From Saccharospirillum sp. (GTDB lineage: Bacteria; Pseudomonadota; Gammaproteobacteria; Pseudomonadales; Natronospirillaceae), in NCBI GenBank assembly GCA_022565595.1, contig JAIUML010000032.1, positions 1-44,065 on the forward strand: 44,065 bases of DNA, in the 5' to 3' direction. This document shows positions 19,923 to 24,267 of this stretch, one piece after another. The number at the start of each line of letters is the position of its first letter. Positions within the stretch are counted from its first letter, which is position 1. The notes under the pieces are model-generated. The model was not told the origin of the DNA and did no database searches. It saw only the letters and a program-made list of their open reading frames with translations. A program made the position numbers and the translations under genes.

Positions 19923-20384
19923 TTACTCGTCTTCTGAAAATGGCAACGTCACGGCATCAAACCAATAGGCATCCATGGTACTGATCAATTGTTGCAGGGA
20001 GTCGAACCTCGGTGGAAATTTCAGTACAGAATTTGCCCCAAGGTGGTAAAGCATGCGGACAAAAGTAGGGTCATCCTGATTCAGGAAAAGAACCGAAGGC
20101 ACTTTTTTCCAGCGTACAAGCTTACTGAGTTCCAGCAAGGTCTGTTGTGCTTTTAGTGTGTCATCAACATAGGCTATCAGGAAAAGATCTACATGGGCGG
20201 CCGACTCGGGTTGCAAATGCGAGCTTATCAGCGATTGCTGAAAGCTTCGAATATCGACATGCCATTGAATATGATGAGCCAGGCAATAGGTTGCCAAGGC
20301 TTGCTCAATTTGCTCCGCCACGATTGCACTTTCGGAAAGCAACAGGATGGTACGCGGAACAAAGGCTTTCCGAGCTGAGCGCAT
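19923..20384 (-). CDS. Degenerate receiver-domain protein lacking the phospho-acceptor
   Basis: The 153-residue protein has a receiver-like layout resembling Rcp1-type response regulators: first strand ILLLSES, third strand VDLFLIAYVDD, fourth PSVLFLNQDDPTF, fifth GANSVLKFPPRF and the ending MDAYWFDAVTLP. The acidic pair after strand one reads Ser-Glu. The phospho-acceptor aspartate is Ala71, and the Thr/Ser switch is lost, though Lys122 remains. It therefore cannot be phosphorylated in the usual way and may act as a protein-interaction module. GGAGGG precedes the ATG. It lies 67 bp after the REC-GGDEF-EAL gene on the same strand, probably in the same transcription unit. Confidence 0.7.
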   Translation of the reverse strand: MRSARKAFVPRTILLLSESAIVAEQIEQALATYCLAHHIQWHVDIRSFQQSLISSHLQPESAAHVDLFLIAYVDDTLKAQQTLLELSKLVRWKKVPSVLFLNQDDPTFVRMLYHLGANSVLKFPPRFDSLQQLISTMDAYWFDAVTLPFSEDE

Positions 20385-20451: not shown

Positions 20452-22173
20452 TCAGGAGGCCGGCCCTCTCTGTTGGATGTTACCTGTTTGTTGCAGTACC
20501 GCATCCAGGTCCTCCAGTTTCAGGGGAGGGTAGTACAAATAACCCTGGCAAATAGTGCAACCCTGCGACTGAAGTTGTTCTTTCTGTTCTTTGGTTTCCA
20601 CGCCTTCGGCCACTACGCTCAGATCGAGTCCTCTTGCCAGTGACAGTATGGAGTGTGTAATGGCTGGCTCTCGCAAGCCTTTGATGCCGGCTTCAGAGAC
20701 AAAGCTTTTGTCGATCTTGATGCGATCCAACGGGAATTCACGCAAGTAACGCATGGAGGAGTATCCAGTGCCAAAATCGTCGATTGCAATCTTGATGCCA
20801 GCCTTTCGAATAGAATGCAACACATTGGTTTGGCTCAATCCGTTTTCGACCAGGGCTTCCTCGGTCAGCTCCAGTTCAAGTATTCCCGGTGGTATCCGGT
20901 ACTGTTTGATGCATTGCCGCAACTGACTCAGAAACCCCTGGAATTTCAATTGGCGTGGGGAGACATTCACCGAAACTGGTAACGTCAGGTTCGATTGTTT
21001 CCATAGTTGTAATTGTTTACAGGCGGCTTCAATGACCCATTGACCAATGGGTACGATCAACCCGCTGCGCACAGCAACGGGAATAAATTGAGCCGGAGAT
21101 ACCACTTGTCCGTTCCGATGGTTCCACCGGATCAACGCCTCCAGGCCACATATATTGCCGCTTTTCAGTTCGATCTGAGGTTGGTAATAGAGTTCGAACT
21201 CCTCGTTACGCAAGGCGGTACGCAGTTCTTTCTCGGTTTCCATACCGTGGATCAAACGCGCTTGTAGACGTTCGGTAAAAAAATGATAACTACCCGCACC
21301 TCTAGCTTTTGACTCATATAATGCCATATCGGCTTTTTGCATCAGTTCCATAGCGAGGTTGCCGTGATCAGGGTAGATGGAAATGCCCATGCTGACGGTG
21401 ATGTCCAGAGTGGTATTGCTGACTGGAGAGGGGCGACACAATTCATTGGATATTTTTTTGACGATACGGGTAATGTCCTCGACTTTTTCTATGTTGTCGA
21501 GCAGGGCGGTGAATTCGTCTCCACCGATACGTGCGACAAAATCACTTTTACGCACAGATTTGCGCAGTCGCTCACCAACCAGGGTCAGCAGCAGGTCGCC
21601 AACATGGTGGCCGAGGCTGTCATTGATGTCCTTGAATCGGTCGAGATCCAGGAAAATCACTGCCAGGTTCGTTTTCGTGCGGGCTGCTCTGGCAATGGCC
21701 AGTTCCATGTGCTCTTCGAATATATGTCGGTTTCCCAGACCGGTCAGTGGGTCGCGGCGAACGAGTTCGGCAATCTCCAACTCCGCGTCCTTGCGCTCAA
21801 TTGCATGGCGTATGCTACGATCGAGCAGGGTGGTGGACATTTCATCTTTGGGTATGAAGTCTGCTGCCCCTTCTCTCATTAACATGTCGTCCAGTTCAGG
21901 CGAGTTATTGCTTGTCATCACGATAATGGGCTTGTTCAATTGCAATTTTCTGGCCTGTTGCAGTAGCTCCAGACCGGAATGACTGCCGAGAAAGTAATCC
22001 AGCAGAACAAGGTCGAGGTCGTCTCCATAGAGCGCCTCAACGGCTTCTTCAAATTCGAGAATGTGCCGGATTTGATAGCGGTTACGTTGGCTCTTCAACA
22101 ACGATTGCTTGACCAGCAGAAAATCTGCCGGGTCGTCTTCTACCACGAGGACCTTGATTAGAGCTTTGTTCAT
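20452..22173 (-). CDS. Response regulator with REC, GGDEF and EAL domains (c-di-GMP turnover)
   Basis: The protein has 573 residues in three domains. The receiver spans 5-120 with the phospho-acceptor Asp59 in VLLDYFLG. The GGDEF domain (about 135-305) has an intact GGDEF at 217-221 and an RxxD inhibitory site (Arg208-Asp211) five residues before it. The EAL domain (about 315-565) has LEALIRW, ELELTEE, DDFGTGYSS, IKIDKSF and AEGVE. Both synthase and phosphodiesterase look competent; which dominates is unknown. The ATG at 22173 overlaps the preceding receiver gene as ATGA. Third gene of the ethylene-receptor-like operon, so phosphorelay input from that kinase is likely. Confidence 0.93.
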   Translation of the reverse strand: MNKALIKVLVVEDDPADFLLVKQSLLKSQRNRYQIRHILEFEEAVEALYGDDLDLVLLDYFLGSHSGLELLQQARKLQLNKPIIVMTSNNSPELDDMLMREGAADFIPKDEMSTTLLDRSIRHAIERKDAELEIAELVRRDPLTGLGNRHIFEEHMELAIARAARTKTNLAVIFLDLDRFKDINDSLGHHVGDLLLTLVGERLRKSVRKSDFVARIGGDEFTALLDNIEKVEDITRIVKKISNELCRPSPVSNTTLDITVSMGISIYPDHGNLAMELMQKADMALYESKARGAGSYHFFTERLQARLIHGMETEKELRTALRNEEFELYYQPQIELKSGNICGLEALIRWNHRNGQVVSPAQFIPVAVRSGLIVPIGQWVIEAACKQLQLWKQSNLTLPVSVNVSPRQLKFQGFLSQLRQCIKQYRIPPGILELELTEEALVENGLSQTNVLHSIRKAGIKIAIDDFGTGYSSMRYLREFPLDRIKIDKSFVSEAGIKGLREPAITHSILSLARGLDLSVVAEGVETKEQKEQLQSQGCTICQGYLYYPPLKLEDLDAVLQQTGNIQQRGPAS

Positions 22174-22622
22174 GGGGGTGCTTCCTGCGTTGACATCATT
22201 GAAGGACCAAACCAGTAGCGATAGAGCGTGACTAGAATGCGTTCAAGCTGGATCAGATCATCGGGCTTGCAAATGTAGGAATTGGCATGCAACTCGTAGC
22301 TGTTTTGAATGTCTTCTGGAGAGTCCGAGGTCGAGAATATAATAATCGGTATATCAGCCCATTGAGTGTTCTGCTTGATCTCACGCAGACAGGAGCGGCC
22401 ATCCTTGCCGGGCATGTTCAAATCGAGCAGGATTACCATGGAGGGGTTTAACGGGTCGGGAATGCTGTTGCGGTTCTTGACGAACCCCATTAACGACTCT
22501 CCATCTTGCAGCCCCTTGACGACTAAAGGCAGGTGAGCTCGTTTGACGGCTGTCCTGACCAGTAACAAGTCTTCAGGGTCGTCATCCACGACCAACAACA
22601 GGGGTTGGGAGTCAGAAGTCAT
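22170..22622 (-). CDS. Single-domain Rcp1-type response regulator
   Basis: The 150-residue receiver has LLLVVDDDPEDLLLVRTAVKR, the acceptor Asp67 in LLDLNMPGKDG, Ser/Thr in IIFSTSDSPEDI and Lys in SYICKPDD. The YRYWFG ending is typical of Rcp1 proteins that pair with phytochrome-like kinases. No output domain is present, so it probably relays phosphate or competes with the receiver of the next protein. The ATG at 22622 overlaps the end of the kinase gene by 11 bp, and its stop overlaps the next ATG; coupling is strong. An upstream in-frame ATG at 22658 lies deeper in the kinase and was rejected. Confidence 0.88.
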   Translation of the reverse strand: MTSDSQPLLLVVDDDPEDLLLVRTAVKRAHLPLVVKGLQDGESLMGFVKNRNSIPDPLNPSMVILLDLNMPGKDGRSCLREIKQNTQWADIPIIIFSTSDSPEDIQNSYELHANSYICKPDDLIQLERILVTLYRYWFGPSMMSTQEAPP

Positions 22623-24267
22623 GGCTGGTCTCCTGGATGGGGTGGGTGGGCAATTCAATGATGAAGCGTGAACCCTTGCCTGCCATACTCTCGGCCCGGA
22701 TCAATCCCTGGTGGCGTTCAACGATCTTGCGACAGATGGCGAGGCCCATTCCTGTGCCAGGATAACGTTCTCTGCCGTGCAGCCTCTTGAACACTTCAAA
22801 AATCTGTTCGGCATACTGGTTGTCAAAACCAATGCCGTTGTCTTCGATAGTAATCCGATATCGACCGGAATCGACCTGCGCTCCATAAATGCGTATCACT
22901 GGCGACTGATCCGGCCGGCGATACTTCAAGGCGTTGGAGATAATATTTTGCAGCAACTGCCGAACCTGACTTGGGTCTACCGTCAACTGGATTAATGGAG
23001 CGACCTCAAACTCTGCCTGGCTTTCCTCGATTGCAAGTTGCAAATCAGACTGCACATCCTTGACGATTTCGTTCATGTCGGTAGGTGCCATCTGACCGCT
23101 ACGAGAAGTTACCCTGCTGTAGGAGAGCAGGCTGTCGAGCAGTTCGCGCATCCTCTCGGCGGCGTCGACCACATAGTTGGCAAACATTTGCCCTTCTTCG
23201 TTGAAAGTGCCGTAGTCCTTGCTGAGCAGCAGCTTTGAAAAAGAAATGATTTTACGTAGAGGTTCTCTCAGGTCGTGTGAAGCGATGAAGGCGAACTCTT
23301 TCAATTCGCTATTGGAGCGCTCCAGGGCATCGCTGCGTTGTTCAATGCGTCTCTCATAGTCACGTCGCTCGCTGACATCGACAACGGAGGCCACTACCTC
23401 ACCTTCACTGCTGCCGTCAACCGGGTTCAACCCGATTTCAACGGGAACGGTAGTGCCGTCAGCACACAGACCGGACAAGTCCCTGCGATCTCCCATCATG
23501 CGTTTGGTTGGTGCTTCGGTATAACGCTGTCTATTATTCTGATGTGTTTTACGGCTGTCTTGCGGCACTAACTCTTCTACGCGTTTTCCCGCCAGTTCAC
23601 CGACGTCATAGTGGAAAATACTGTGTGCCATGGAGTTTGCCTGCAAAACTGTGCCGTCCGAGGCGACCACGATCATACCGTTGGGGGCAGATTCGAAAAT
23701 ACTCTGCAGCCGTTGTTTCACCTGCTCTGATGTCTGAATCTGCAGTTCCAGAGCCAGTTTGGCTTGCTCCAGTTCGTTGGTGCGGCTCGCTACGGTTTGC
23801 TCCAGTGATTCATAGAGAGTACGTAACTGTTGCTCGGCATGGGTGCGTTTGGACATCTCTTCATATAGTGCTTCGTTGCGCTCCGCCAATAAGGCTGGAC
23901 TGGGAATGGCCAATAATCTGGGGACCAGAGGCCAGATCAGAATTGCTGTTAACAAGGAAACCACTGCAGTGAACAGTTTGACCGCGCCTTCCAGGTAATA
24001 GTGAGCGTTCCAGATGTTCCAGATTCCCATTAGGTGGGTGGCACCACAGGCGACGATAAAGGTGGCGAATAACTTGAACATCCAGGGGAAACCAAGGTCG
24101 GCTCGCTCACTCCAGAGCTTGGCCAATGCCAGTGGAATGGTAAAATAGGCAAGGGCTATAATGGCGTCAGAGCCTGCGTGAAGCATCAACAAGTCTGAAC
24201 GCCAGTAAAAGCAATGGCCATGCGGTATGAAGTCGGTGCCAAACAGGTGGTGCCACGTATCGTCCAT
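22612..24267 (-). CDS. Hybrid ethylene-binding-domain histidine kinase (ETR1-like sensor)
   Basis: The protein has 551 residues. Residues about 25-120 hold three membrane helices with SDAIIALAYFTIP and CGATHL. Asp34, Tyr41, Pro45, Cys74 and His78 match ETR1 Asp25, Tyr32, Pro36, Cys65 and His69 at exactly the same spacing. These residues bind copper and ethylene in plants and in cyanobacterial Etr1. A coiled coil (125-185), a PAS domain (about 185-300), HisKA with phospho-accepting His331 (ASHDLREP) and HATPase_c (NIISNALKYRRP, DNGIGFD, GTGMGLAICR) follow. GGAGG lies 5 bp before the ATG at 24267. It heads the operon driving a receiver and a c-di-GMP enzyme. Ethylene binding is inferred; structural similarity is strong. 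Confidence 0.88.
   Translation of the reverse strand: MDDTWHHLFGTDFIPHGHCFYWRSDLLMLHAGSDAIIALAYFTIPLALAKLWSERADLGFPWMFKLFATFIVACGATHLMGIWNIWNAHYYLEGAVKLFTAVVSLLTAILIWPLVPRLLAIPSPALLAERNEALYEEMSKRTHAEQQLRTLYESLEQTVASRTNELEQAKLALELQIQTSEQVKQRLQSIFESAPNGMIVVASDGTVLQANSMAHSIFHYDVGELAGKRVEELVPQDSRKTHQNNRQRYTEAPTKRMMGDRRDLSGLCADGTTVPVEIGLNPVDGSSEGEVVASVVDVSERRDYERRIEQRSDALERSNSELKEFAFIASHDLREPLRKIISFSKLLLSKDYGTFNEEGQMFANYVVDAAERMRELLDSLLSYSRVTSRSGQMAPTDMNEIVKDVQSDLQLAIEESQAEFEVAPLIQLTVDPSQVRQLLQNIISNALKYRRPDQSPVIRIYGAQVDSGRYRITIEDNGIGFDNQYAEQIFEVFKRLHGRERYPGTGMGLAICRKIVERHQGLIRAESMAGKGSRFIIELPTHPIQETSHDF

Follow-up and report, generated by a model that had tools for sequence, protein, structure and literature searches.

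Ethylene receptors in bacteria and the Saccharospirillum locus

In bacterial proteins with an ethylene-binding domain (EBD), the output domains vary widely, according to a review (PMC7700396). Here we describe a locus on a contig of Saccharospirillum sp. (JAIUML010000032.1, assembly GCA_022565595.1; "the window" below is the whole stretch of 44,065 nucleotides analysed) where a histidine kinase with such a domain, of the type found in the receptor ETR1 (gene 1), is followed by a single-domain response regulator (gene 2), a REC-GGDEF-EAL protein with the motifs of enzymes that make and degrade cyclic di-GMP (c-di-GMP) (gene 3), and a receiver-like protein that has lost its phospho-acceptor (gene 4). 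The original prediction had proposed from the sequence that an ETR1-like receptor is linked here to c-di-GMP. Our analysis confirmed the observation and made it stronger. The reading to which we lean, by a modest degree, is a dedicated pathway from gas receptor to c-di-GMP, leading from the kinase to the Rcp-type receiver and/or the REC-GGDEF-EAL protein.

The closest characterised architecture is AzoEtr1/AzoRR-etr1 of Azospirillum brasilense Sp7, where, as in the window, an EBD-PAS-histidine kinase is followed by an overlapping single-domain receiver (PMC11819568; for this and the other papers cited here and below, our statements cover the parts that were accessible). AzoEtr1 is reported to be a functional ethylene receptor that binds the gas. 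Azospirillum answers 100 ppb ethylene, its c-di-GMP is lowered and it forms less biofilm, by a path that the authors call unknown; they propose the kinase and the single receiver as the pathway (PMC11819568). The EBD of AzoEtr1 is 42% identical to that of gene 1. Unlike the window, the 13.5-kb locus around AzoEtr1 (L033; L and G numbers denote loci and genomes of our set) has no match to a GGDEF protein or to the pseudo-receiver. SynEtr1/UirS of Synechocystis PCC 6803, likewise a histidine kinase with an EBD, has a response regulator as its partner (SynEtr1/UirS-UirR-LsiR), and affects motility and biofilm (PMC5812497, PMC6682694). As described in the accessible parts of these sources, it differs from the window kinase in being a UV-A photoreceptor as well, and the partners named there are UirR and LsiR, with no c-di-GMP enzyme among them. 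PcrK/PcrR of Xanthomonas campestris resembles the locus in pairing a plant-hormone-sensing kinase with a c-di-GMP-degrading regulator (PMC7700396), but PcrK has a CHASE sensor and its ligand is cytokinin. In the literature searched, which covers few subscription papers, there was no report of the four-gene cassette, nor of any test of an EBD kinase together with a GGDEF-EAL protein. Sensor and output module of the locus are thus both of known kinds, and what it adds is the pseudo-receiver, seen so far only with ETR1_N kinases.

The sensor domain of the kinase

The N-terminus of gene 1 matches the Pfam family ETR1_N (PF25487) with 119.2 bits (E 9e-35; cut-off 27), and its membership of the ETR1-type EBD family, as read from the sequence, is well supported. 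It is the sole ETR1_N match of the source genome. A chance resemblance to ETR1 could be ruled out, given this score and the absence of ETR1_N matches from all 14 control genomes. The five residues singled out by the original prediction (D34, Y41, P45, C74 and H78) are all present and a sixth, K97, was found in addition; the six are invariant across a nine-sequence alignment that includes AzoEtr1 from Azospirillum. D34, C74, H78 and K97 align to AzoEtr1 D35, C75, H79 and K98, which correspond to ETR1 D25, C65, H69 and K91 (PMC11819568). The alignment without gaps, originally claimed for ETR1 itself, holds for AzoEtr1; the correspondence to ETR1 rests on the Pfam profile, by which ETR1 was represented, and on the numbering in PMC11819568. 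AzoEtr1 is here the 525-residue protein of L033, whose strain (Sp7), length, EBD-kinase order and D35/C75/H79/K98 match that paper.

An AlphaFold2 model of the domain has three long helices (residues 24-54, 61-87 and 90-111) with a mean predicted local distance difference test (pLDDT) score of 92.2. On ideal helical wheels, Y41 and P45 deviate from D34 by no more than 20 degrees, and C74 and H78 are 40 degrees apart. The model found no clear counterpart among solved structures (best Foldseek E 0.47), nor did the EBD profile among PDB sequences (one match, E 0.6). The alignment behind the model and the PDB search, for which alone it was used (A4), held 89 of 98 non-redundant domains and that of the window, the nine left out being mostly degenerate. 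The kinase core carries HDLREP at 331, NALKYR at 445, DNGIGF at 476 and GTGMGL at 504, that is, HisKA and the N and G boxes of HATPase_c.

To assess how far the pocket residues are kept, we compared distinct ETR1_N domains. C74 and H78 are jointly present in 129 of 134, and all five residues of the original prediction in 116. The duplicates L086-L088 were removed before a count of 140 domains, and six more identical domains to reach 134; a further alignment (A1) is without L044, L057 and L058. As the 80 named genome loci were found with peptide patterns that contain PHGxC and YxxIP, the conservation of Y41 and P45 in them is partly by construction. We also examined 62 domains found by Pfam alone, a set that includes neither the weak match G070 (40.8 bits, above the cut-off) nor those of the phylum search. 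Of these domains, 59 retain D, 58 Y, 53 P, 57 C, 60 H and 55 K, and 46 have all five residues. The variation of Cys and His is therefore not free, be it among the 134 domains or the 62, and free variation of these two was the outcome that the original prediction had set beforehand as speaking against it. K97 is changed in 2 of the 3 domains with a changed D34 and in 5 of the 137 without (Fisher p 0.006, uncorrected for kinship), which fits the polar bond predicted for this pair in ETR1 (PMC11819568). In one EBD kinase of a REC-GGDEF operon (L044:8314-10332), the copper Cys is changed to Trp and the Pro to Ala, which suggests a domain that lost copper and kept its c-di-GMP wiring.

From these residues, gene 1 would be expected to bind Cu(I) and ethylene. 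It is also conceivable, if rather unlikely, that ethylene is not the natural signal and that the three-helix domain, with Cu(I) bound, informs the c-di-GMP branch of the copper or redox state or of a different ligand such as CO, acetylene or other alkenes. The copper ligands are kept and the ligand itself cannot be read from sequence; the papers found to name both Saccharospirillum and ethylene do not, by their titles and the beginnings of their abstracts, concern an ethylene response. Against this stand the binding of ethylene reported for AzoEtr1 and the reported answer of its host to 100 ppb, as well as the retention of D34 and K97, whose ETR1 counterparts are tied to binding and output (PMC11819568).

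Output genes and the proposed pathway

The coordinates and the overlapping order of kinase, Rcp1-type receiver and REC-GGDEF-EAL genes given in the original prediction proved exact, with overlaps of 11 nucleotides between genes 1 and 2 and of 4 between genes 2 and 3. Gene 4 starts 67 nucleotides past gene 3, without overlap, and a Shine-Dalgarno-like stretch precedes every ATG of the four-gene locus. Scans for promoters and terminators gave nothing in excess of shuffled sequences. The nearest relatives of gene 2 with a solved structure are Rcp1/RcpA/RcpB-type receivers (E 5.8e-22 to 1i3c and 7.8e-23 to 1k68; the best match is 5te9, a receiver protein), which places it among the Rcp1-type regulators. 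Gene 3 has intact motifs throughout: Asp59 of the receiver, the I-site RKSD, GGDEF, EAL, and the N, E, DD, K, E and Q that we take to be the catalytic residues of EAL domains. Since the RKSD, GGDEF and EAL catalytic motifs are kept, both cyclase and phosphodiesterase activities seem possible.

In the dedicated pathway that we favour, a membrane dimer of gene 1 would hold Cu(I) in its ETR1-type domain of three helices, at C74 and H78. Binding of ethylene, or of a small unsaturated gas like it, to the copper would alter the autophosphorylation of His331 via the PAS linker. From there phosphate would be handed on to gene 2, to the receiver domain of gene 3, or to both, and the balance between synthesis and breakdown of c-di-GMP by gene 3 would shift, with effects on attachment or motility. 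Ethylene inhibits the SynEtr1 kinase, as argued from indirect evidence, and the same is predicted for AzoEtr1 (PMC11819568); an ethylene-inhibited kinase in the window would be a guess by analogy.

Association of ethylene-binding domains with c-di-GMP proteins

Bacterial ETR1_N proteins are common. Our scan confirmed at least 562 encoding stretches, and 46 of the 390 genomes of the host's order have a domain above the Pfam cut-off, so the restriction of ethylene-receptor domains to cyanobacteria and a few other bacteria, as first assumed, is too strong. Of the 50 ETR1_N loci in this order, 18 have a link to GGDEF, namely seven operons with REC-GGDEF-EAL, six with REC-GGDEF and five direct EBD-GGDEF fusions; in other words, 13 of the 45 non-fused EBD loci are in an operon with a GGDEF protein. 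Neighbours were called by phmmer or with hidden Markov models built from the window's family. For comparison, 3 of the 60 HATPase_c matches of the source genome, gene 1 included, have a GGDEF match at most 3 kb downstream on the same strand. We regard the contrast as an indication and not as a test, since the distance rules differ (gene chains with gaps below 400 nucleotides for 18/50, the 3-kb rule for 3/60) and the control is a single genome, whose HATPase_c matches are not necessarily all histidine kinases.

The fusions deserve separate mention. The Pfam check, run on the window proteins, on the non-EBD and cassette proteins compared (including the L223 kinase) and on the nine EBD-GGDEF fusions from all sets, found ETR1_N together with GGDEF in 9 of 9 fusions, and EAL as well in three. 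As in the window, ETR1_N is joined in them to a c-di-GMP enzyme; they differ in being one protein, without a phosphorelay. Conservation across genomes and the repeated linkage of EBD and GGDEF, including the fusions, make the link between EBD and a c-di-GMP enzyme well supported. The prediction of a GGDEF-EAL output for such a receptor, which had not been recognised from earlier work, was upheld as to the link; the connection between EBD and c-di-GMP is already in print (PMC6682694, PMC11819568), and a diguanylate-cyclase gene adjoins GeiEtr2 (PMC6682694). Three proteins of 313-326 residues consist of ETR1_N and GGDEF alone (L041:7647-8627, L159:6983-7948 and L230:7190-8131), and are possible minimal one-protein switches from ethylene to c-di-GMP.

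Several observations weigh against a dedicated ethylene pathway. There is no GGDEF neighbour at 32 of the 50 EBD loci of the order, a count that includes three loci less than 1.5 kb from a contig end (L034, L047 and L229; L034 belongs to G001, where genes 2-4 are on another contig) and on which the concentration of 16 of the 46 EBD genomes in one genus (g32) also weighs. The linked loci L044 (Cys to Trp) and L236 (Cys to Ala) and the fusion L235 (both ligands gone) show that the c-di-GMP link does not need the copper site. The PAS domain of gene 1 might be the real input. Finally, the output module has no exclusive tie to ethylene, since PAS kinases without ETR1_N head the same run of genes. 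At least four loci of Gammaproteobacteria (L265-L268) have the same order of kinase, Rcp and REC-GGDEF-EAL as the window, but lack ETR1_N, and their third genes do not group with those of the EBD cassette.

These modules (L246/L265, L247/L267, L250/L266 and L259/L268) lend some support to the view that the EBD is a membrane anchor or a relic, the PAS domain being the sensor of an ordinary PAS kinase-Rcp-REC-GGDEF-EAL module. We find this improbable, because retention of both C74 and H78 by 129 of 134 domains is not what one would expect of an anchor. Moreover, the L223 cassette kinase has an EBD and no PAS match at E 0.001, which makes the EBD the shared input of the cassette kinases, and there is no gene-4 match behind gene 3 in the six non-EBD modules inspected. 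We give as little credence to a scheme where kinase and Rcp are the working pathway and the REC-GGDEF-EAL protein is phosphorylated by other kinases, co-transcription merely balancing amounts. A single receiver without GGDEF is indeed a frequent downstream neighbour at other EBD loci, and the 60 HATPase_c and 66 GGDEF matches of the source genome would allow cross-talk. However, genes 2 and 3 overlap by 4 nucleotides, and in a tree the third genes of the seven cassettes cluster together (100/99), separate from those of six non-EBD REC-GGDEF-EAL modules. This suggests that the third genes travel with the kinase.

The pseudo-receiver

Pfam and NCBIfam gave no match for gene 4. A profile made from seven members of its family matches Rcp proteins, and its predicted model (pLDDT 78.8) has the five strand-helix repeats of a receiver fold, with Rcp1 as the top Foldseek match (E 4e-8). 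Judged by profile and model, gene 4 is a diverged Rcp paralogue. Read against Rcp1, none of the seven members retains the acceptor Asp (it is replaced by Ala in five Saccharospirillum, Gly in L089 and Leu in L223), and a trailing receiver without phospho-acceptor had been noted here before. The conserved Thr/Ser and Lys are also replaced, with a Lys or Arg one position before the Lys site. With all these positions changed, gene 4 should not accept phosphate in the usual way. We rejected the idea of an ordinary receiver overlooked by Pfam: no member has the Asp, whereas the 24 other profile-matched loci inspected encode Asp-bearing Rcp proteins. These 24 non-cassette loci are among the matches of the profile in 119 of 369 genomes; as it mostly matches Rcp proteins, it is a poor tracer of the cassette. 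The pseudo-receiver tree comprises six of the seven members and was flagged for long branches.

The pseudo-receiver is an unexplained extra part that belongs to the cassette. Most likely it would pair, as an adaptor, with the Rcp, the kinase or the REC-GGDEF-EAL protein. Pairing with the Rcp might occur through the common Rcp-type surface, with gene 4 acting as adaptor or brake.

Distribution of the four-gene cassette

The ETR1_N domain is present in 5 of 6 Saccharospirillum genomes. The four genes are contiguous in the source genome, in MSK14-1 (G002), in S. salsuginis (G003) and in G005. In S. impatiens (G001) they are divided between two contigs, whose ends interrupt the kinase gene: the ETR1_N part is at the end of C48 (L034), the kinase tail and genes 2-4 are on C38 (L182), and the split is either an assembly break or an insertion. 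The sixth genome (G004) lacks both the ETR1_N domain and gene 4. The identical four-gene order recurs in Ectothiorhodospiraceae bacterium WFHF3C12 (L089) and in G978, from another family of the host's order (L223). The search of other genomes for this gene order, suggested at the outset, was therefore successful, and an order peculiar to the source genome is ruled out. The 16-kb loci L035, L036 and L037 contain no match to the genes flanking it in the window (HAD, an exo-endonuclease family and a Na/Pi symporter), which argues for the cassette as the conserved unit. Two EBD operons without gene 4 (L039 in G015 and L042 in G021) have third genes outside the cassette group, which suggests that the wiring may have more than one origin.

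A bolder statement is that, in Gammaproteobacteria, a conserved, co-inherited four-gene unit converts the plant hormone ethylene directly into a change of c-di-GMP, the pseudo-receiver being a pathway-specific adaptor or brake; the unit and the EBD-GGDEF fusions together would then be a general wiring from ethylene to c-di-GMP. We put it forward tentatively, being slightly more inclined to doubt than to accept it.

Two further arrangements were seen. Two genomes of the family, G015 (L039/L040) and G021 (L042/L043), each have two different EBD kinases; the partner is REC-GGDEF-EAL for one kinase and REC-GGDEF for the other, as though the outputs were set to be opposite or graded. In a metagenome-assembled genome of Deltaproteobacteria (L156:3426-10832), an EBD kinase is followed by receivers and a GGDEF-EAL protein, possibly an independent version of the wiring from EBD to c-di-GMP.

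Features of the locus and ecological setting

The source genome, of 4.77 Mb, has a heavy c-di-GMP and kinase load, with 66 GGDEF and 60 HATPase_c matches. The features of the locus are collected in Table 1.

Table 1. Genes, domain and residues of the four-gene locus, in positions of the window
Feature	Positions	Strand	Basis
Gene 1, sensor histidine kinase, 551 residues, ETR1_N-PAS-HisKA-HATPase_c	22612-24267	minus	Open reading frame and Pfam; phospho-acceptor His331 in HDLREP
ETR1_N (ethylene-binding-type) domain of gene 1	23905-24192	minus	Pfam PF25487; three predicted membrane helices
Helix-1 residues D34 (24166-24168), Y41 (24145-24147), P45 (24133-24135)	24133-24168	minus	Translation and conservation
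Helix-2 copper-ligand equivalents C74 (24046-24048), H78 (24034-24036)	24034-24048	minus	Translation and conservation
Helix-3 K97, equivalent of AzoEtr1 K98 and ETR1 K91	23977-23979	minus	Alignment; equivalence from PMC11819568
Gene 2, single-domain Rcp1-type response regulator, 150 residues, Asp67 acceptor intact	22170-22622	minus	Pfam and solved-structure relatives
Gene 3, REC-GGDEF-EAL, 573 residues	20452-22173	minus	Pfam and motif reading
Gene 4, Rcp-fold pseudo-receiver, 153 residues, acceptor Asp replaced by Ala	19923-20384	minus	Profile, predicted model and alignment

An AzoEtr1-like architecture is encoded here with a complete c-di-GMP enzyme, and the question of how a gas may act on attachment becomes testable with three or four proteins. 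With a plant-type ethylene receptor kinase and a c-di-GMP enzyme in one conserved unit of a salt-loving genus, a route by which a plant gas would affect bacterial attachment can be put to the test. A plant context is plausible, since Saccharospirillum is characteristic of Salicornia roots, according to the accessible part of PMC6581177. The genus also appears, by titles and the beginnings of abstracts, in the literature on the colonisation and degradation of marine plastic, another surface-attached life where a gas or surface signal could matter.

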